Shown: piece after piece, positions 53,403 through 64,000 of the stretch
Numbering within the stretch: position 1 is the first letter of the stretch
Layout of the letters: each line of letters starts with the position of its first letter
Source: Pirellulaceae bacterium
GTDB lineage: Bacteria; Planctomycetota; Planctomycetia; Pirellulales; Pirellulaceae
DNA length: 64,000 nucleotides
Direction of reading: 5' to 3'
Assembly (NCBI GenBank): GCA_020852965.1
Contig: JADYZV010000036.1
Location: 1 to 64,000 of the forward strand
The notes under the pieces: generated by a model
What the model saw: only the letters and a program-made list of their open reading frames with translations
Database searches by the model: none
Told to the model about the DNA's origin: nothing
Made by a program: the position numbers and the translations under genes

Positions 53403-54662
53403 TTACTCCACAGTTAAGTCTGTTTTAATTTGGTCAGTTGGTTGCATCGTTGCTTTCGCTCGCAGACGAGTAGCCTTCCGGCAATCTTCGTGCGGACATC
53501 GCACAATAATTCCGTCGGACAATTTACTAACCGAACTAGGAGCGAGGGCTGACTGAGGGAGCCAGAAGGGTCGGCGACAGCTTGGGCATGCAAAGGAATG
53601 TGGTTTCTTTTTCGCACTGGGAGACTGAGGGCTAGGCCTACGATCTGCAGTTGCCACAGGCCCCTGCTGGGTCGATGTGGGCGCTGCTGGGACTGGAGAT
53701 GAACCGACGCGTGGCGGCGTGTTGAGTCGGATCGTCGACATCACTTGTTGTCGAAACTGTCGCACCAATAATGAAGCATCATATTCTTGCATCAGTTTGA
53801 GGCGACGAGTCAAGTAGGTGGTGGCCGAAGTGACCGATTCCGCTAAGCGAATGTTGGCATCCAGCGAATCGCTCTCCTGCTGTTGAAGCCACGCGTCAAT
53901 ATTGATCTGGCGATACAAAATGGGTGATTTGAGCGACCATATCATCAAAACTTTGCGGGCTTCAACAAGCCCGCTGGAAACGAGCAAGCCTGCGCGATCT
54001 GCGGTAACCTCAGCTTGCCGCGCCCAGGCGATCAGAGGCAGTTCGATTGCACTCTCAATCAGCCGACTGGGGTCGAGTAGCCCGGCCACTCCATTGCGCA
54101 TCATCCCACTACCAGCAGACTGTTCACCCACGAGAAACTGAATCACGGTTTTCCACAGCGCATGCCCAGCCAAAATATGTCCCATCTCGCGCGCGAACAA
54201 GAACATCAATTCGCTGCGTTGGAAGCAAGAGACTAGGGCCGACCCCATCACGATGAAGGCATCGCGATCGGTTCCAAACGTCAAGGCATCCCATGGTCGA
54301 GCGCCAGACACGTAGATCATCGGCATCCTGGAAAGCCCTAACATTTGCGCGGCTTGTACGGCTGCACTATGCACTTGCGGCATCTGACGAGCGCTAAGCC
54401 GGATTCCATTGAAATTCGCTTCGATCCAGGGCCTACCAGCTCGTTGGGAGACGCTTTGCGCGAAAGCAACGAGCGGCTTGATCGAGCGCAATTTGGCCAT
54501 GGCTTGACCATCCTGGGCCCATTGAAAAATCTCTGGGGCTACACCATGTCCAATCCCCAACGGCTTTAGCGTACGACAGTTTGCACACTCGACGGCACGA
54601 GCCTCGAAGGCCGCGCCGCAGGCCGAACAATGTTGCGGAGTGTACATGGGAGTTGGTCTCAT
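53403..54662 (-). CDS. M48-like metallopeptidase with zinc ribbon, catalytic His replaced
   Basis: A 419-residue protein. An N-terminal zinc ribbon (CSACGAAF, CANC) precedes an M48-type peptidase core. The expected HExxH reads RExxH: Arg158-Glu159-Met-Gly-His162 within LFAREMGHILAGHALW, while EVTADRAG, the third-ligand region, is kept. The C-terminal part has a second Cys-containing region (FACPSCRRPFWLP, VRCPHEDCRK). With the first zinc-binding His gone, activity is doubtful unless the zinc site is rearranged. No signal peptide, so the core may face the cytoplasm. Ten bases upstream of the acidic protein gene. Confidence 0.82.
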   Translation of the reverse strand: MRPTPMYTPQHCSACGAAFEARAVECANCRTLKPLGIGHGVAPEIFQWAQDGQAMAKLRSIKPLVAFAQSVSQRAGRPWIEANFNGIRLSARQMPQVHSAAVQAAQMLGLSRMPMIYVSGARPWDALTFGTDRDAFIVMGSALVSCFQRSELMFLFAREMGHILAGHALWKTVIQFLVGEQSAGSGMMRNGVAGLLDPSRLIESAIELPLIAWARQAEVTADRAGLLVSSGLVEARKVLMIWSLKSPILYRQINIDAWLQQQESDSLDANIRLAESVTSATTYLTRRLKLMQEYDASLLVRQFRQQVMSTIRLNTPPRVGSSPVPAAPTSTQQGPVATADRRPSPQSPSAKKKPHSFACPSCRRPFWLPQSALAPSSVSKLSDGIIVRCPHEDCRKATRLRAKATMQPTDQIKTDLTVE

Positions 54663-55378: not shown

Positions 55379-56347
55379 CTACGATTTTTCTACACGTTCG
55401 AAGGTGAATGTCACAACGCCATCCGGCATCGCGACGACGAGGTAGCCGTCTTCGAACTTGAACTGCGCTTGTAGAGGCCCCTCGTTGGTCTGCAAGAACA
55501 ACGTGTTTCCACGAACCAAGTAGGTTCCGACCACGGCTTCGCGATCTTCGCTGCCCCAAAGGTCGAGAGCGATCGTGTCCATGCGAAATCCCCCCTGCTC
55601 GTCAAACGCGGCCAGCATGGTGACACCATAGTCCCCCACATCGTCTTGCAGATACCATTGGCCGACGAGTGGATTGCGGTGAGAAGCATCCGTGCCCTGA
55701 CTACTTCCGCCCCGCTCGCGTCGATCGCCTGAGGAAATGGTCTGACCAGCGTCAGTTGGTTGTGCTCTCGGACCAGCCACAGTCAGCGTGGGCAACGCGG
55801 CAGGTATCTGCGATTGCACCAGCAGATAGATAATGTCGGAATCGTTCTTGGTTTGCATGAGTACAGCGGGAGCGCCCGTCAGGGAGCCTTTTTCCGCTCC
55901 GGGAAGTTGTGGATAGGCGACGAACACTTTGGTCGCAACGGCAACCAGAGGGTGGCTGGTCATGACGATCCCCCGTTCATTATCGACGATCCAACCGACT
56001 GTGTGGAACTCTTTGCCATCCTCCATGACCGCCACGACCAGCACTCCAGCTTGACCGAACCGAGCTTCCAGCTCGGCGGGAACTGCCGGGCCCTCTACAG
56101 TGCGAGTCTCCTTCGCCGGCGAAACTGGTGGCTGCGGTGTTGACGACTGCGATTTGACCTGCGATTCGTTTGAGCTGGCGGGGGGCTCAAGCCCCCACTC
56201 TTCGTATTCGGCAGCTAGATCGGCTGAATCTGCTGCTAGGAGGCGGCCGCCCAGGGGAGCGGAAACGCTGCTTTCAACGACTACCAACAGTAGTACGGCC
56301 TTGAAAAAGCGGCCAGTAAACCAGCGATTAACAAGAGTAGCGGTCAT
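55379..56347 (-). CDS. secreted protein with trypsin-like region and C-terminal beta domain
   Basis: A 322-residue protein of no certain family. A signal peptide (FFKAVLLLVVVESSVSA) is followed by a Ser/Pro-rich linker. A region resembling the first half of a trypsin-like fold comes next (GWIVDNERGIVMTSHPLVA), with His in the place expected for the triad. No GxSGG motif follows, so protease activity is not supported. The C-terminal 110 residues (LVGQWYLQDDVGDYGVTMLA, FRMDTIALDLWG, LFLQTNEGPLQAQFKFEDG) look like a lipocalin-type or similar small beta-barrel domain. Likely a secreted or periplasmic binding protein. Confidence 0.65.
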   Translation of the reverse strand: MTATLVNRWFTGRFFKAVLLLVVVESSVSAPLGGRLLAADSADLAAEYEEWGLEPPASSNESQVKSQSSTPQPPVSPAKETRTVEGPAVPAELEARFGQAGVLVVAVMEDGKEFHTVGWIVDNERGIVMTSHPLVAVATKVFVAYPQLPGAEKGSLTGAPAVLMQTKNDSDIIYLLVQSQIPAALPTLTVAGPRAQPTDAGQTISSGDRRERGGSSQGTDASHRNPLVGQWYLQDDVGDYGVTMLAAFDEQGGFRMDTIALDLWGSEDREAVVGTYLVRGNTLFLQTNEGPLQAQFKFEDGYLVVAMPDGVVTFTFERVEKS

Positions 56348-56797: not shown

Positions 56798-59700
56798 ATG
56801 ACTCTGAAAATCGAGATAGCCGCCAAACCGATCAGAACGCTTCTTGTATTGAGCTGTCTACTATCAGCCCACCGTCCGGCAACTTCGCAGGAGCCGCCGA
56901 GTTCGACGGTGCCACAGGCAACAGTGCACACCACGCTCTCTGTGTCGCCGGCGCAACAGCGAGCGGAACTACAGTCGCAATCGCAGCAGCATTGGCTCGA
57001 CGGCGAGTTAACTCCAGCCATCGAGCGCTTGCAACAATTAATCGACCTTGAGTCGAGCCTTTTCGGGGACGACAGCCAGCGATTGGCTCAGCGCTACGAA
57101 ACGTTGTCGAATCTATATCTCGAAGCGGGAGACGTGCAGCAAGCCGAAACAAGTATCCGTCGCGCCAGCCAAATACTCCGAGCGAATTGCCCACCCACGA
57201 GTTGGCAGGCGGTCGAAGCCGATCGCAAACAGGCGGTGTTCAAGCTATGGGTTGCAATTCCAATGACGGATCGACAAGCGCTGTTTGACCTCAGCCGCGA
57301 AGTCAACCAGCACTACGAATCGCTGCAGTTGGGCGATGCGCTGATTGCTGCCGAAAAATTGGCTGCGCTAATTGCCAAACATGTCAGCGAACGCCATCCC
57401 GCTTGGATTGACGTTATCTCATCCATCGAGACGATACACATGTCGCAAGGGAACCTGGAGAACGTAGGCCCCCAACTGGAGAAGCTCTACAGCATACTCG
57501 AGCAAGTCGAACACCCTGACCATCCCAATTTTGGCAAGCTCCTATGGCTACTGGCGAACCACGCTAGTTTTACTGGCGATCACGCTGCCGCACTCCGTTA
57601 TGGTTCAGCGGCCGTAGAACAATACGAGCGGGCCAATGCCACCAGCGATCTCAACTACGCCAGAGCTCTGAGCCAGTACGCAACGACCCTCTACGGCCAA
57701 GGGGACCTTGATCAGTCCATTCCCATCCTGCGCAAGGCTTTCTCCGTTTGGACTGAGGAATTGGCCATCCAAGACGAACAGGAAACAGTCATCGGGTACT
57801 CCCTTTGCCTCGCGTTGGAGGATGCTGGTGTACGAGAGCTCAAGTCACAGCACTGGGATACAGCCGAAGCAGCCTTCGGTGAATCGCAACAAGTGGCCAT
57901 CCAGACTTGGGGGGAAAGTCACTATCGATCCAAAGATCTAGGATTCAAACTGAGCCTAGTGCAATTAGCGCGCGAGTGGACGACCGCGGAACTGTCCAGC
58001 TTCGAAAAGTTAGTTGCGTTAGAGAGCACTATCGCGGAGCAAGTAGCCCAGGCCAACTTCCCCGAAGCCATCGATTTAACTCAGCAGCGTCTCGCCACTG
58101 CCCAGGACTTACTGGGAGCGGATGCAGCAATGACGCTGACCATCGAGCGAGAATTATTCATATTGCAAATGAGTCATGGCAGGTATTCACCGAGTGGCTG
58201 GCAGCGATTTACTACGGGCCTTATCGAATTTATCGCGCGCCACCAACAGTGCTTTGGGGCGAATCATCCCGATCACGCGGAGCTGTGCTTCCATGCGGCT
58301 GAGTTCCTAAGTGAAAGCGACCCCATGGCGATCGACTTGGCCAGGCAGTCGATGGAAAGCTATCAAGAAGTATACACTCGGACTTCAGAAGAGTATCTGG
58401 CGGCACGTACGTTGTTAGGAACGCTGCTAGCAACCCAGGAAGATGAAAGCTGCATAGAGATCCTCGAAGACTCCATCGAACTTTGGGAGGCCGGACCCTC
58501 GGCGGGTTGCTTTCGCCACTGCATGGCGGCGTTAAAGCTCGGGCGATTCTATTATGAAATAGCAAATCCTTATGAAGCCAGAATTCAAACGTCTAAAGCC
58601 GTAGCGCTGATTCGCGAAAATGAACAAGTGCCAACCTACCAACTGGTCAATGCACTGAACGATCTGGCCAACATTTATTCCGACTTCGAAGACTACGACG
58701 GCGCGCTAGTCTACTATCGCGAAGCACTTGACCTCGCTCGCCAATCGGCCCCCGGGTCGAACGCAGCCGACTCTCGCCCTAGCGATTGGTTGCTCTACAA
58801 CGCGGCCAGAAGCTATTATTACACGCAGCAGTACGCCGAAGCAGAAGTGCTGCTGAGTGAATTGGTCGACCGATTTCCTGTGGCCTCGCTCAGTGATGAA
58901 GATGCCTTTCGCAGTGGCTGTTACTATCTGACCAAAGTATTGTTGAAACTTGAAAAAGCCGATTTGGCCAAGCAGACTTTGGGCAAAGCCAGCGCTGCGG
59001 TGGAAATGCACTTCTCGAATGACCCACAAGTGTTTGCGGAAATGCTACTCGAGAATGCCGAGCTCCACTCCCAACTTAAGCAAACCGACGCGGCCAGGAA
59101 ATTTCTCGACCAGGCCTTTGAGAAGCTGAGTTCGCAATCCGATTTATCCGCTCTTTCGGCGGCGGACGCATCGAATCTCTTTCGCCTGCTCGATCAACTA
59201 ATCGCTATATCCGAAGACATTGGAGCTTGGGATAAATCTGCAGAAGTCAGAAGCTTTACGGTCCCCTTGGTCCACGAATACTACTCGGAGAGTTGGGGAT
59301 GGATCTACATACTCGAGCGACAGCAATTGGCTGAGGTGAAACGGATCGCTCAATCCTCACCAGAACAGCAGGCACAAATCCGAGAGCTACAGGAACGCAC
59401 CAAGTACTTGGCTGACCATGCGCTGACCGACTATCGCTCGCTCAAGCCTACAGATCTCCCGCATTTGACAGCTTGCTACGAAAGCTGTGTCGAGATACTC
59501 GGGGAGCACAGCCTGATCGCGGCCAATTATCGCCAACAAGCGGCAGCCTATTTCGAACATCAGCAACAGTACCAAATCGCCTTAACGTCTCAAGCATACG
59601 CAGTACAAACCTACCTGCAACTGCTGGGTGAAACGCATCCTCAAACGGCGCGCGCCTTGGTGAAATGTGCCCGCATGGGACGGCAGATCGGTGCCTATGA

Positions 59701-62281
59701 ACAATGTAAACGGATGTTGGATCTGGGGATCCACACCCTGAAGGATGTTCAAGGGGAGCAGAGCGAGGACACGCTCGAAGCCACGCTGGAGCTGGCCAGA
59801 CTGCTGGTCGATGTCCGAGACTATGCTGCCGCCCTGCCACTTGCCCGAACTGCGGAAGCTTCTTTTGGCGGGCTATGGGGTAAAAACAGTGTGCTCTATG
59901 CCAGCGCCTTGGGCGTACTGGGAGAGGTCTACTCCGGGATGAACGAACTCGATCTAGCTGCCGACTACATGACCCGCGCGCACGCCATCCTGGTGGATAT
60001 CCTGGAACCCTTTGATAGGCGGCTGTTACGCAGTGCAGCGCGGGCAGCAATTGCCAATACTTGGAGCCTGAAAAAGGCGGATTTTTCGACTGAGCCGATC
60101 GAGCAAGTCCTGGAGGCCTATGCGGAGTCTCAACAAACAGAGCTGGTCGACTACGTAGAATTGCTGGTCGACTATGGCGATGTGCTCGTGCAACAGTCCA
60201 AGTTTGCAGAGGCTGAAGGGGTGTTCGGGCGAGCGTCCGACTCGGTTGTCGAATTGGACGGTATGGGCGATGACATCATGCGCGCAGCCATCAACAGTCG
60301 CCTCGGCTCAACCCAGCGCAAGCTAGGGAAATTAGCCGCCGCAGCCGAGAGTCTAGCCAGTGCTGCCGAGACTCAGCGTCGTATCTTCGGCGACCAGTCG
60401 CAAACGCTGTGCGAAACGCTCTTCCAGCAATCGATTGCTGCGCAGCGCGCTGGCGATGCGCAGCGCGCCACAGCGCTGGTACTCGAAAGCCTACACATCG
60501 AACAAAAGCTATTGGGAGACCTCGGCTACTTGCTTTCCGACAAGTCGCTGAGTTCGATGTTGACCGCAGACGAAAATCGTCTCAGCCTACTGCTACGTGG
60601 ATTACTCAATTCGGACCGCGATTCCGAAGCGGTCGCCCAAGGGTTCTACTGGACGCACCAACGCAAGGGTTTGGCCCTCGACTTGAGCTGCCGCCTGCGC
60701 AAGCTGCAGCGCTCGCGGCTGTACGATTCCAACGTCGTGCGGCTGGCTGGGCGCGCGCGTCTGCTCAATCAAGAATTGGCCGACCTGGCACTGTCGCCAA
60801 CGCAGAAGCTGACTCTCCAAGAGATCCGACAGAAGCAGGCCAGCCTTGCGCGAGAGATTGCCACCACCAATAGCGCACTATCGCTAGCGCTCCGTAGTGC
60901 CGAGGGTGAGAGCGAAGTCAACTTGATGCAAACCGATGAAGATCTCACCGCAGTGCAGAAATCGCTCCCCGCGGGAACTCTCTTCCTGGAGTACGTGCGG
61001 CTGGATGGTTTTGTCAATTCGTTGGCCGAGAAGCAACCACCACGCTACGTCGCATTTTTGGTGCAATCCAATGCAGCAGCCCCTATCCAGATGGCCGATC
61101 TGGGCGATGCGGACGAGATCGATGGGCTCATCGACGAGATGCGTAACGAGACTCGCGGGCTGACGCGCGCGCTGAGCATCTCCACGGAAGCCGCCTTAGA
61201 AGACAAGTACAAGCAGCTCGCAAGCCGACTGTATACCACCCTACTCGGGCCATTTGTCACGCCATTGTCAAACAGCCAGGCTTTAATCGTGGGGCCCGAT
61301 GCCAACCTATCCTCGGTTCCCTTTTCGGCCCTGGTAGGTGACGACGGCCAGTACTTGGTCGAAAAGCTCGATATCAGCTACGTATCTTCGTCACGAGATC
61401 TGCTGCGACCGGCCGCCAGTGTCGGCAGGGGGACATTGATCTTGGCCGATCCGAACTTTGACGCGGGAGTTGAAAGCCGCCGTGAAGCAGCTAAAGAGAT
61501 CGACCAGCAAACCGACACGCGCTCACTGCTGGTGACGCGAAGCGCCGCCCAGATCGAGCTACGCTCTCTACGCTGGCGAAGGCTGCCCGGAGCGGAAGGT
61601 GAGGCCAACGAGATCGCGGAGATTCTCACTGGCTCTGAATTTGGTCCGGTGAAGAAATACCTGGACAATCAAGCGATCGAGGAGGTTTTGCAGGGAGCCC
61701 AATCGCCAAGAATCGTACACTTGGCCACCCACGGGTTTTATGTCCCTCTGGAGGACGAGCTCCGACCTGCAGATTCCGATTCTCGCGCCATAAGTTTCAC
61801 CTCAGGATTAGCCAGATTGCGGACGGACAGCAATCCCTTGATGCGTTCTGGAATCGTACTGGCTGGTGCCAATCGAGTAACGGAATCGAAGGCTGCAGAG
61901 ACCACCATGGAAGATGGCTGGGTAACGGCGCTCGAGATCGCCAGCATGGATTTTCAGAATACCGAACTGGTGGTGCTGAGCGCTTGCGAAAGCGGACTGG
62001 GAGATGTTTCCAGCGGCCAGGGATTGCAAGGCATCCGCCGCGCATTCACTAGCGCCGGGGCCCATTCGGTGATCACCAGCCTGTTTGAAGTACCCGACGC
62101 GGAAACGCGCGACTTGATGCGCGGCTTCTACCAGACGTTCGCGACGACCAACAATCGAGTCTCCGCCATCAACTCGGCCCAACGCCAGCAGATCGCCCTG
62201 CGCCGCCAGGAGTTCGACGCCGCTCATCCATTCTTCTGGGCCAGCTTCGTCATTTCTGGAGGAGTCCCGAGCCCTAAGTAG
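56798..62281 (+). CDS. exported TPR-CHAT protein (giant caspase-like protease)
   Basis: An 1827-residue protein. A signal peptide (TLLVLSCLLSAHRPATS) precedes dozens of tetratricopeptide-like helical repeats from about 70 to 1380, for example SNLYLEAGDVQQAETSIRRA and LASAAETQRRIFGDQSQTL. A CHAT domain occupies about 1470-1827. The caspase-like dyad is intact: His1645 in VHLATHGFYV and Cys1730 in VVLSACESGLG. The longest frame starts with a GTG within the repeat, so I use the ATG at 56798 with AAGGA nearby. CHAT proteases are usually cytosolic effectors; the export signal is notable. Followed by a small secreted protein and an M48 peptidase. Confidence 0.9.
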   Translation: MTLKIEIAAKPIRTLLVLSCLLSAHRPATSQEPPSSTVPQATVHTTLSVSPAQQRAELQSQSQQHWLDGELTPAIERLQQLIDLESSLFGDDSQRLAQRYETLSNLYLEAGDVQQAETSIRRASQILRANCPPTSWQAVEADRKQAVFKLWVAIPMTDRQALFDLSREVNQHYESLQLGDALIAAEKLAALIAKHVSERHPAWIDVISSIETIHMSQGNLENVGPQLEKLYSILEQVEHPDHPNFGKLLWLLANHASFTGDHAAALRYGSAAVEQYERANATSDLNYARALSQYATTLYGQGDLDQSIPILRKAFSVWTEELAIQDEQETVIGYSLCLALEDAGVRELKSQHWDTAEAAFGESQQVAIQTWGESHYRSKDLGFKLSLVQLAREWTTAELSSFEKLVALESTIAEQVAQANFPEAIDLTQQRLATAQDLLGADAAMTLTIERELFILQMSHGRYSPSGWQRFTTGLIEFIARHQQCFGANHPDHAELCFHAAEFLSESDPMAIDLARQSMESYQEVYTRTSEEYLAARTLLGTLLATQEDESCIEILEDSIELWEAGPSAGCFRHCMAALKLGRFYYEIANPYEARIQTSKAVALIRENEQVPTYQLVNALNDLANIYSDFEDYDGALVYYREALDLARQSAPGSNAADSRPSDWLLYNAARSYYYTQQYAEAEVLLSELVDRFPVASLSDEDAFRSGCYYLTKVLLKLEKADLAKQTLGKASAAVEMHFSNDPQVFAEMLLENAELHSQLKQTDAARKFLDQAFEKLSSQSDLSALSAADASNLFRLLDQLIAISEDIGAWDKSAEVRSFTVPLVHEYYSESWGWIYILERQQLAEVKRIAQSSPEQQAQIRELQERTKYLADHALTDYRSLKPTDLPHLTACYESCVEILGEHSLIAANYRQQAAAYFEHQQQYQIALTSQAYAVQTYLQLLGETHPQTARALVKCARMGRQIGAYEQCKRMLDLGIHTLKDVQGEQSEDTLEATLELARLLVDVRDYAAALPLARTAEASFGGLWGKNSVLYASALGVLGEVYSGMNELDLAADYMTRAHAILVDILEPFDRRLLRSAARAAIANTWSLKKADFSTEPIEQVLEAYAESQQTELVDYVELLVDYGDVLVQQSKFAEAEGVFGRASDSVVELDGMGDDIMRAAINSRLGSTQRKLGKLAAAAESLASAAETQRRIFGDQSQTLCETLFQQSIAAQRAGDAQRATALVLESLHIEQKLLGDLGYLLSDKSLSSMLTADENRLSLLLRGLLNSDRDSEAVAQGFYWTHQRKGLALDLSCRLRKLQRSRLYDSNVVRLAGRARLLNQELADLALSPTQKLTLQEIRQKQASLAREIATTNSALSLALRSAEGESEVNLMQTDEDLTAVQKSLPAGTLFLEYVRLDGFVNSLAEKQPPRYVAFLVQSNAAAPIQMADLGDADEIDGLIDEMRNETRGLTRALSISTEAALEDKYKQLASRLYTTLLGPFVTPLSNSQALIVGPDANLSSVPFSALVGDDGQYLVEKLDISYVSSSRDLLRPAASVGRGTLILADPNFDAGVESRREAAKEIDQQTDTRSLLVTRSAAQIELRSLRWRRLPGAEGEANEIAEILTGSEFGPVKKYLDNQAIEEVLQGAQSPRIVHLATHGFYVPLEDELRPADSDSRAISFTSGLARLRTDSNPLMRSGIVLAGANRVTESKAAETTMEDGWVTALEIASMDFQNTELVVLSACESGLGDVSSGQGLQGIRRAFTSAGAHSVITSLFEVPDAETRDLMRGFYQTFATTNNRVSAINSAQRQQIALRRQEFDAAHPFFWASFVISGGVPSPK

Positions 62282-62576
62282 AGGTCTAAGTGTCCAAAAG
62301 GAAACTTTTGAGAATTTTTACCACACTGCAATGTCACAAGCATGAAAATCATCTGTAGGTGAGCTGTCAGAGAGAATTGCTCGAGCACCACGTCGGGTTG
62401 GAACGGGTTCAGCCGTTAGAATCGGGACAATCCCTCGGGCGGCTGGCGATGTCCCCTAGGGCAGCAATTCTCATCAATGGCAGAGTTTGCATTCCGAGTT
62501 GCGACCTACTAGAATCAGCCTCAATCGTTCGGGCTGCCGTAGAGTCAACTCAAACCCTTTCACAGGATCTATTGTG
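62282..62576. other. intergenic region downstream of TPR-CHAT gene
   Basis: 295 bp without a gene. It contains AT-rich tracts near 62300-62320 and ends with AGGAT at 62563 as ribosome site for the next gene. No hairpin with T-run was found, so read-through into the next two genes is possible. Confidence 0.4.
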
Positions 62577-63068
62577 ATGAAAAGAATTAAAACAGTTGCG
62601 GCTGCACATGCGCTGTTGGGATTGGCTGCCGGGGTTCCTTCCGAAGCGTCCGCCCAGCAGTTGACTCCTCCCCCACATGTCGAGCGGCTCATTCCGGATG
62701 CGTCCGACCTGCAAAGCTCCAAGGTGTCACACCTTGGGCAGCTTGAAACGAAAGGGCAAGCGTTCACCACAGCGATGGCCGCTATCTCGCACCCCTCTGG
62801 TTCGGCAGGCAAGATCGTAGTGGGTGAAATGGCTGGCGCGGTCGAGCGATCGGCGCTTACCACGAAAAGTGCCAGCACGACTGTGGCTAGTGTTGCAACT
62901 GCTCGAACCAAGGAAATCTCATTTCCGGAACAGACCAGTAAAATTGCCGCGCACGGTTCCCTGGCTAAAGAAATCCCAGCGCTGGCGCGCACACAGCCTG
63001 CTGCCAAAACCAGCACGGCAAACTCGATCAGCCGCGAGCCGTTCTCCATAGAATCCATCACCAACTAG
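62577..63068 (+). CDS. small secreted protein of unknown function
   Basis: A 163-residue protein with a cleavable signal peptide (RIKTVAAAHALLGLAAGVPS then ASA-Q). The mature part is rich in Ser, Ala, Thr and Lys, with no Cys and no recognised domain. It looks like a disordered, exported substrate or peptidase propeptide. The ATG at 62577 has AGGAT upstream; the longer frame adds 30 unlikely residues. It lies between the TPR-CHAT gene and an M48 peptidase on the same strand and could be a substrate of either (inference). Confidence 0.6.
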   Translation: MKRIKTVAAAHALLGLAAGVPSEASAQQLTPPPHVERLIPDASDLQSSKVSHLGQLETKGQAFTTAMAAISHPSGSAGKIVVGEMAGAVERSALTTKSASTTVASVATARTKEISFPEQTSKIAAHGSLAKEIPALARTQPAAKTSTANSISREPFSIESITN

Positions 63069-63096
63069 TACTCGAGCAGTGATGGGAGCTAACAAT

Positions 63097-64000
63097 ATGC
63101 GTGCGTTAATAACTTGCGTTTCGCTGGGTATCGTCATGCTATCCAGTGTGTTTACGGGCGGACCGTGCATGGCAGAGGTGACCGATCGCCACCGCGAAGT
63201 GGTACAGGAGGTCGCTGACAGACTGTTGGCGGTTATGGAAAAACCTGAGGGATGGGAGGCCTGGCCGCCGGAGGTTACTGTGGTTGACCCAGGCTTTGCG
63301 AACGCGTTCGCCAGCTTTCGCGAGGAGAATGGAGTTGAGATTCCGATGGTGGAAATCACCGTGACCACCATCGAAGATATCGCCAAATTCGAGCCCGACG
63401 TATTGGCTTACACCATTGGGCACGAACTCGGGCATCTGCACTTCAGGCATAGCCATACGAGAATTGATCTCGCGGAAAAATTCGGCGACAAACTAACCAC
63501 GATTCGCATGGCTTGCGGTCGAGAGCACGAATTGGAAGCCGATTTATTCGGTATGCAGTTGGCACTCAAAGCCGGCTATTCTCGCCAAGGCCTCCTCAAG
63601 GATCTGCAGGCCTGGAGAGAGTTGACGCCACCCTACTGTCGCTTCGAGGGTTTGGCCGTTGTCCATCCACCCTGGGAGGAGCGCGCCGCCTTTTTGCTGC
63701 GTGGAGAAAACCAGGAGGCCCTCTGGCAGTCGCTGGGATCCTTTCAGACCGGAGTGATGTTTCTTGAGAATCAACACTACAACTTGGCTCAGCTTTGCTT
63801 TCACAACGTCACGACTGAATTCCCCGAGTGCTACGAAGCCTGGGCCAACATGGGTTACGCCTACTTGATGCAGTACTGTGATGCACTGGATGCTGAGGAC
63901 CTACGGACGCTGGATGTTGGTCATCTGGTCGTGGGCGGGTTCTATCGTCGTCCCGATTCCCTTGAGCCTGACGTAAAACGAGGGGGCGGTGACCCAGAAC
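63097..64000 (+). CDS. secreted M48-family metallopeptidase with TPR (BepA-like), partial
   Basis: The frame from ATG 63097 is open to the window end, giving 301 residues; the C-terminus is missing. A signal peptide (LGIVMLSSVFTGGPCMAEV) is followed by an M48 core with HELGH at 109-113 (zinc His109 and His113, catalytic Glu110) and the third-ligand motif EHELEADLFG (Glu145). TPR-like helices begin near residue 240 (NLAQLCFHNVTTEFPECYEAWANMGYAYLM). The order M48 then TPR resembles BepA (YfgC), which acts in outer-membrane protein quality control. All zinc residues are intact, unlike the M48-like gene at 53403. Third gene after the TPR-CHAT gene. Confidence 0.88.
   Translation, partial: MRALITCVSLGIVMLSSVFTGGPCMAEVTDRHREVVQEVADRLLAVMEKPEGWEAWPPEVTVVDPGFANAFASFREENGVEIPMVEITVTTIEDIAKFEPDVLAYTIGHELGHLHFRHSHTRIDLAEKFGDKLTTIRMACGREHELEADLFGMQLALKAGYSRQGLLKDLQAWRELTPPYCRFEGLAVVHPPWEERAAFLLRGENQEALWQSLGSFQTGVMFLENQHYNLAQLCFHNVTTEFPECYEAWANMGYAYLMQYCDALDAEDLRTLDVGHLVVGGFYRRPDSLEPDVKRGGGDPE

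Follow-up and report, generated by a model that had tools for sequence, protein, structure and literature searches.

A predicted exported TPR-CHAT protein in a rare planctomycete locus with a membrane kinase and an ECF sigma factor

The stretch of DNA analysed here (the window) comprises bases 1-64000 of a 135,517-base contig (JADYZV010000036.1) from the 8.37-Mb genome of a Pirellulaceae bacterium, hereafter the host. At its end lies a gene for a predicted exported TPR-CHAT protein, followed on the same strand by genes for a small secreted protein and an M48-family metallopeptidase. A first-pass annotation of the window had noted these three rightward genes, and their positions were confirmed, the M48 gene being only partly inside the window (642 residues when whole). 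The trio of CHAT, small protein and M48 genes is part of a larger conserved locus, which also holds genes for a small exported protein, a membrane kinase, an extracytoplasmic function (ECF) sigma factor and a 'WYLQD' protein. The locus is rare, is rearranged yet linked, has its own promoter-like motif, which is found nearly exclusively at this locus and its genes, and is larger than the trio first noted. Its features in the host are:

56798-62281, plus strand: exported TPR-CHAT protein (predicted), 1827 residues, His1645/Cys1730 dyad (Pfam, alignment, tree)
62332-62357, plus strand: promoter-like motif TGTCACA-N14-CTGTA, exact, 245 bases before the ATG of the small gene
62577-63068, plus strand: small secreted Ser/Thr/Ala-rich protein, 163 residues, predicted signal peptide, mature part without cysteine (positional homologues)
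63079-64000 in the window, ending at contig position 65007, plus strand: M48-family metallopeptidase, predicted exported, HELGH (Pfam)
55379-56347, minus strand: WYLQD protein, 322 residues, half-trypsin part and C-terminal NPLVGxWYLQD domain (homologue alignment)
Contig 65062-65613, plus strand: small exported protein, 183 residues, 3' of the M48 gene, beyond the window
Contig 65685-68228, plus strand: membrane kinase, 847 residues, beyond the window
Contig 68720-69481, plus strand: ECF sigma factor, 253 residues, beyond the window
Contig 72365-72943, minus strand: secreted-protein gene three genes past the ECF gene, with a second motif at 72999-73024

Conservation of the locus

A search of the host family gave no relative of the M48 protein in the 59 other sampled genomes (1 of 60, the host itself), nor in the 14 others of the host genus (1 of 15), and led to an early reading that there was no conserved cluster. 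This reading was overturned by named genome contigs and by the wider phylum. Relatives 61-65% identical were found by a scan of named contigs in Planctomycetaceae bacterium HKST-UBA56 and Gimesia sp. SAT87, and a profile search detected M48 in 6 of the 392 phylum genomes sampled and in 8 of the 170 genomes of a second family. All eight loci with enough sequence, which come from two families and include the host, hold genes for the TPR-CHAT, small, M48, small exported, kinase, ECF and WYLQD proteins, and the five genes from the small one to the ECF one stand in a single order on one strand in every case. The CHAT protein of these loci has about 1800 residues (it is broken by unread bases in one), and there are one or two WYLQD genes in each, with a contig-end fragment in one. 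The ninth locus, on a 5-kb contig of HKST-UBA56, holds the start of the CHAT gene, the small gene, the M48 gene, the small exported protein and the start of the kinase gene.

The CHAT gene has the same orientation as the operon in three loci and the opposite one in five, but always lies within 5 kb of it, and in five loci its distance from the small gene is below 1 kb. A gap of 10 bases separates the small gene from the M48 gene in the host, and the two also lie near each other in the remaining loci. Thus the grouping of CHAT, small protein and M48 within about 5 kb, suggested by the annotation from a single genome, is seen in 8 of 8 loci, one small gene (genome G096) being placed by position only, and the truncated ninth contig agrees with it.

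Presence of the genes follows the same pattern. In the second family the WYLQD gene was found in 7 of the 170 genomes, all among the eight with M48, the exception being a 78% complete assembly. A CHAT-domain query against these genomes gave eight at 399-515 bits, the next CHAT scoring 253 bits; M48 occurs in seven of these eight as well, and the remaining assembly is 76% complete. Our CHAT census covered 60 fetched regions, taken from the stronger matches among those listed, together with the host and cluster loci; it left out six matches above 100 bits and weaker ones outside the fetched regions, and one region (L126) gave no CHAT open reading frame (ORF). In the 78 CHAT ORFs collected, both dyad positions were aligned in 62, the Cys only in 13 and neither in 3. 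A tree was built from 46 of them, the other 32 having an aligned domain segment of 250 residues or less, and all eight cluster CHAT proteins formed one clade with a support of 1.0. The occurrence of CHAT genes without the two partners in most relatives, which the annotation had raised as a sign against a unit, is therefore true of CHAT genes at large, since at least 56 of 60 host-family genomes have some CHAT match and only one has the M48 protein, but it is not true of the CHAT clade of this locus. The patchy distribution may point to horizontal transfer of the locus, but its guanine plus cytosine content (55.6%) is no different from that of the rest of the window (55.7%).

Outside the cluster, a kinase was found in 10 of 84 same-strand neighbour slots of CHAT genes versus 15 of 287 control slots (Fisher p 0.034), which is too weak for a general CHAT-kinase link. 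Other CHAT loci of the host family vary in content. In another genome (L086) an ECF sigma factor, a kinase and a TPR-CHAT gene stand side by side on one strand, with no M48 labelled. In the host itself a TPR-CHAT gene is followed by an exported protein, trypsin-like by eye, and a Ser/Thr kinase (L008, G000:C183:1-7667), and a further contig (L007, G000:C35) has two tandem TPR-CHAT genes with a 178-residue gene between them and a gene that looks transposase-like by eye at the contig end. A 994-residue protein on the minus strand (G000:C181:76258-79242, or L009:6259-9243) has a signal-like N-terminus and what looks by eye like a degenerate CHAT domain that lacks the SACE motif. ORFs of about 1000 residues with weak PF12770 matches are common in the host family and may represent a conserved exported pseudo-CHAT.

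A promoter-like motif at the locus

The motif was found by enumerating two-block words upstream of 34 cluster genes, so that the first counts come from the discovery sequences, and genome-wide counts and matches at paralogues serve as independent checks. Across the nine loci (224 kb) TGTCACA-N14-CTGTA has 19 exact matches, all of them a short way upstream of cluster genes. It stands ahead of 8 of the 9 small genes and of 7 of the 11 WYLQD genes (five genomes), two of these latter matches falling inside predicted ORFs, in over-long starts ahead of the conserved start. It is also found before the secreted-protein gene past the ECF gene in three genomes, and before a second M48 gene of G096, whose WYLQD gene has a one-base variant. 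No exact match stands directly before the kinase or ECF genes of the nine loci.

The complete host sequence has two exact matches, at 62332-62357 and 72999-73024, both in the locus; the secreted-protein gene beside the second has a weak likeness to a Gimesia-side gene in the same place. A set of 20 genomes gave 28 matches versus 4 for the motif read backward as a control (2 versus 1 in the host). Of 70 matches in the second family, 24 come from the eight cluster genomes and 46 from the 162 remaining ones, and the backward control gave about 62 matches with one in a cluster genome (counted from the table). The nine cluster genomes together have 26 matches, 19 of which belong to the locus. Of the off-locus matches, two (G208 and G265) lie in over-long ORFs, 75-84 bases ahead of the point at which similarity to WYLQD starts, and look like the same arrangement of motif and WYLQD gene; the remaining five are inside unrelated ORFs. 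Three matches in total came from twelve genomes that lack the cluster, of which four belong to the genus of the Gimesia record.

The encoded proteins

The CHAT domain (PF12770) was matched at residues 1473-1821 with an E value of 2.1e-67 and 228 bits, against a curated cut-off of 24, and Pfam marked eight TPR_12 stretches in the protein. His1645 and Cys1730 lie in invariant columns in all 19 aligned CHAT sequences, which bears out the 1827-residue TPR-CHAT protein with an intact dyad that had been claimed, and the His and Cys motifs are intact in all eight cluster proteins. The score against the model of FxSxx-COOH TPR proteins (NF040586), 105.6 bits, is below the cut-off of 300. A CHAT profile run against the PDB had one match, 8rot_B ('CHAT domain-containing protein', E 0.0011), and nothing more up to E 0.1.

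Export was judged by a rule of our own, which asks for a basic N-region, a hydrophobic core and a small-residue cleavage site. The rule is loose and no substitute for SignalP: it passes 85 of 1236 internal start groups, and 224 of 475 long predicted ORFs of the loci, a set that includes real exported proteins and false ORFs. The host CHAT, small and M48 proteins all pass. The signal peptide of the CHAT protein presupposes a start at the ATG of position 56798; the ORF at its longest begins at a GTG 39 codons upstream. Seven of the eight cluster CHAT proteins pass, and the failing one contains unread bases. In the fetched regions the rule passes 52 of 63 full-length CHAT ORFs, and 43 of the 50 in that set with both dyad residues aligned. 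To read the export signal as implying an extracytoplasmic caspase-like protein, as the annotation did, is thus a fair inference, but it holds for most CHAT proteins examined, and the predicted export is not what makes the locus unusual.

The small protein has no match in Pfam or NCBIfam and passes the signal rule, so that the claimed secreted protein of 163 residues without a domain stands. A 196-residue ORF overlaps its gene on the opposite strand, and evidence from a single genome left its status as a gene uncertain. However, ORFs in the same position in the eight other loci pass the signal rule as well (9 of 9), and the ratio of non-synonymous to synonymous changes (pN/pS) is 0.07-0.35 in five pairs of homologues, the host copy being in none of the pairs. 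Because of these positional homologues and the purifying selection among them, the small ORF is very likely a real gene. Sequence conservation is low: identity of the host protein is 21-23% with seven homologues and 13% with the G096 protein, which has no phmmer similarity to the others, and the E values of 3e-7 to 4e-6 between the host and Gimesia-side proteins come from a very small search space. The mature part is 46-61% Ser, Thr, Ala, Asn, Gln and Gly, and an Ala-Arg-Thr/Asn site is kept in 8 of the 9 proteins. Two weak host-family matches (E 0.005 and 0.008) are to low-complexity sequence.

The annotation had described the third protein as a BepA-like M48 peptidase with HELGH. The M48 assignment (Pfam E 4e-11), the HELGH motif and a predicted signal peptide were all recovered, but evidence for a TPR part is weak (TPR_16, E 0.25). 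HExxH is present in 10 of 10 homologues and a downstream Glu (ELEAD) in 9 of 10; five of ten pass the signal rule, the five Gimesia-side copies having a Glu near the likely cleavage site. No relative was found among PDB sequences up to E 0.01. Another M48-like protein (53403-54662, minus strand) has a zinc-ribbon-like N-terminus and reads REMGH in place of HExxH, the first His being Arg (Pfam M48 E 1.9e-11).

The small exported protein passes the signal rule in 10 of 10 copies. A 'YbjN' label given to it by eye was supported neither by Pfam nor by PDB sequences or structure, and is not used here. In G096 the pair of M48 and small exported protein genes is duplicated (L062, L061), with a 1016-residue exported protein, WD40-like by eye, between the copies. 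The secreted protein past the ECF gene passes the signal rule in 6 of 7 copies, versus 1 of 8 for the kinase and 0 of 8 for the ECF factor. The WYLQD protein has no Pfam match; by eye its N-terminal part is the N-terminal half of a trypsin-like fold, with the Ser half absent and the catalytic His inconsistent. A phmmer search related two WYLQD paralogues to an exported trypsin (E 1.1e-9 and 4.6e-10), and 9 of 11 copies pass the signal rule, the host copy failing and one copy being a fragment.

The kinase motifs VAIK/VALK, HRDLKPxN and DFG are present in 8 of 8 proteins, and a single hydrophobic segment after a basic RRHP stretch predicts that the kinase domain is inside and the TPR part outside the membrane. 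In a survey of planctomycete kinases TPR parts were mostly predicted to be periplasmic, according to the available text (PMC11032199). The kinase and ECF genes adjoin in all eight loci, 50-491 bases apart. A Pfam scan of 12 host-locus proteins gave matches to CHAT/TPR, M48, kinase, sigma factor and zinc ribbon; no anti-sigma gene was recognised in the host genes so scanned, and the small exported genes are of no known family.

A possible signalling circuit and its alternatives

We propose, at a probability of roughly 0.5, that the trio forms part of a self-contained, autoregulated envelope-signalling locus, in which the ECF factor drives secreted products and the exported CHAT protein is a constitutive partner. 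We infer a stimulus from the state of the envelope, which would be sensed by the membrane Ser/Thr kinase, whose kinase domain would lie inside and whose TPR part would lie outside; the kinase would activate the neighbouring ECF factor, directly or not, and the ECF factor would read TGTCACA-N14-CTGTA before the operon that runs from the small gene to its own gene, giving positive feedback. It would also drive the secreted WYLQD and related genes, so that the output would be mostly extracytoplasmic. The TPR-CHAT protein, made from another promoter, would be a standing partner outside the cytoplasm, and any cleavage by it would most likely fall on an induced secreted protein, or it may be restrained by one, and this would set or reset the signal. 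The conservation of the trio supports the grouping first suggested, but with the kinase, ECF factor, WYLQD protein and motif taken into account a signalling module is a likelier function than a protease cascade alone. A bolder version is unlikely, though worth stating: the CHAT protein outside the cytoplasm would control the ECF factor inside via the membrane kinase, and the small protein would be both protease target and ECF-induced feedback signal, perhaps the precursor of a peptide read by the kinase TPR part.

Two known systems come close to this arrangement. In Craspase the TPR-CHAT protease Csx29 cleaves Csx30, an inhibitor of the ECF factor CASP-sigma, as described in the available part of PMC10028731. 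The cleavage is proposed to free the ECF factor, and by analogy the CHAT protein likely tunes the circuit from outside. Both systems encode a TPR-CHAT protease with an ECF sigma factor; the present locus differs in the signal peptide of the CHAT protein and in the membrane kinase beside the sigma factor. No Cas7-11 or Csx30-like gene was recognised in the general Pfam scan of the 12 host-locus proteins, in which no dedicated models were searched, and the only Cas-named match was to a zinc ribbon far below the cut-off (Cas12f1-like_TNB, E 0.048, 14.3 of 26.3 bits, at 53403-54662). The second parallel is with kinase-controlled ECF factors (ECF43/59/60). In the pairs EcfP-PknT (ECF43) and EcfK-PknS the ECF gene lies beside a Ser/Thr kinase gene, and the DAED motif of such factors is lost, its charge being restored by phosphorylation, as far as the available text of PMC8103513 goes. 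The kinase gene lies beside the ECF gene here too, in 8 of 8 loci, whereas the DAED position is acidic, the kinase has an outer TPR part and exported proteases are encoded in the locus. Compared with CHAT peptidases in general (PF12770), the protein has the same domain, His/Cys dyad and TPR in front, but is 1827 residues long and belongs to a clade of its own tied to the locus; a signal peptide it shares with most of those examined. Like BepA-type M48 enzymes with TPR, the M48 protein has predicted export, HELGH and possibly a repeat part behind the peptidase, while its TPR evidence is weak and it has an extra C-terminal region.

Several observations weigh against the proposed circuit. No exact motif precedes the CHAT gene in any of the eight loci, and in three of them other genes separate it from the small gene (about 3.1 kb with one gene in G096, about 4.6 kb with two genes in G208 and G265), so that the tie of the CHAT protein to the circuit is one of linkage and shared presence alone. 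The exact motif is also absent at the small gene of G096, at one WYLQD gene of G308 and at the host WYLQD gene, where there is only a site with three mismatches, of a kind no commoner than in shuffled sequence (28 versus a mean of 35.6). A typical ECF promoter is spaced more widely, and the motif could be the operator of something else. The DAED position, assigned by eye, stays acidic in 8 of 8 ECF factors (QADD, LADE, QADE, EADD), and the kinase would therefore have to act differently from the known kinase-ECF pairs. AlphaFold2 models built from two-row alignments were discarded both for the CHAT region and for the small exported protein, with a mean predicted local distance difference test score (pLDDT) of 42 and 41.

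Other explanations divide the same evidence differently. The locus may be an envelope proteostasis cassette, in which the CHAT and M48 proteins degrade or mature damaged exported proteins and the kinase and ECF factor adjust their amount, with the CHAT protein outside the signal path. M48 enzymes with TPR parts, such as BepA, are quality-control proteases, the M48 gene sits in the motif-bearing operon, and it is duplicated together with the small exported protein in G096; a housekeeping role fits poorly with so rare a locus (6 of 392 genomes), however, and Csx29, a CHAT enzyme, is a specific and regulated protease acting on Csx30 in the available text of PMC10028731. We consider this explanation rather unlikely. 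Quite unlikely, in our judgement, is the cascade of the first-pass annotation, in which the CHAT protein, the M48 protein or both would cleave the small protein or be inhibited by it, as a proteolytic switch outside the cell. The closeness of the small gene to M48 in the host, with CHAT within 5 kb, is in its favour, as is the Ala-Arg-Thr/Asn site, which is kept within an otherwise variable low-complexity chain. Prokaryotic caspase homologues are stated, in the part of PMC6426788 that is available, to cleave after positively charged residues, which the conserved Arg would fit. Yet the site is a sequence pattern only and is absent in G096, the small proteins align weakly, as given above, and the CHAT gene is without the motif in all eight loci.

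A role in defence or self-killing, with the CHAT protein as a death protease deployed against invaders or competitors, would recall bacterial conflict systems, for which CHAT and trypsin domains have been described as effectors (PMC10907252, available part). It is very improbable here, as no NTPase, vWA or TIR domain was found among the 12 host-locus proteins scanned with Pfam (a set drawn from the host, apart from genes inserted in other genomes), the protease parts are predicted to lie outside the cell and the motif-bearing genes mostly encode exported proteins.

The locus was not found described in the literature on CHAT domains, planctomycetes and ECF factors that we consulted (mostly open full text, with few subscription papers or preprints), nor in the available parts of PMC10907252, PMC10028731, PMC8103513, PMC8567305 and PMC11032199. 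Taken together, the analysis suggests an undescribed signalling unit across the cell envelope in a few planctomycetes. CHAT proteases with a worked-out function act, to our knowledge, in the cytoplasm; an exported one encoded near a kinase and an ECF factor with a seemingly private promoter would make the function of an exported caspase-like protease testable by ordinary genetics, as the candidate regulon, the kinase-sigma step and the candidate substrates all lie within about 20 kb.

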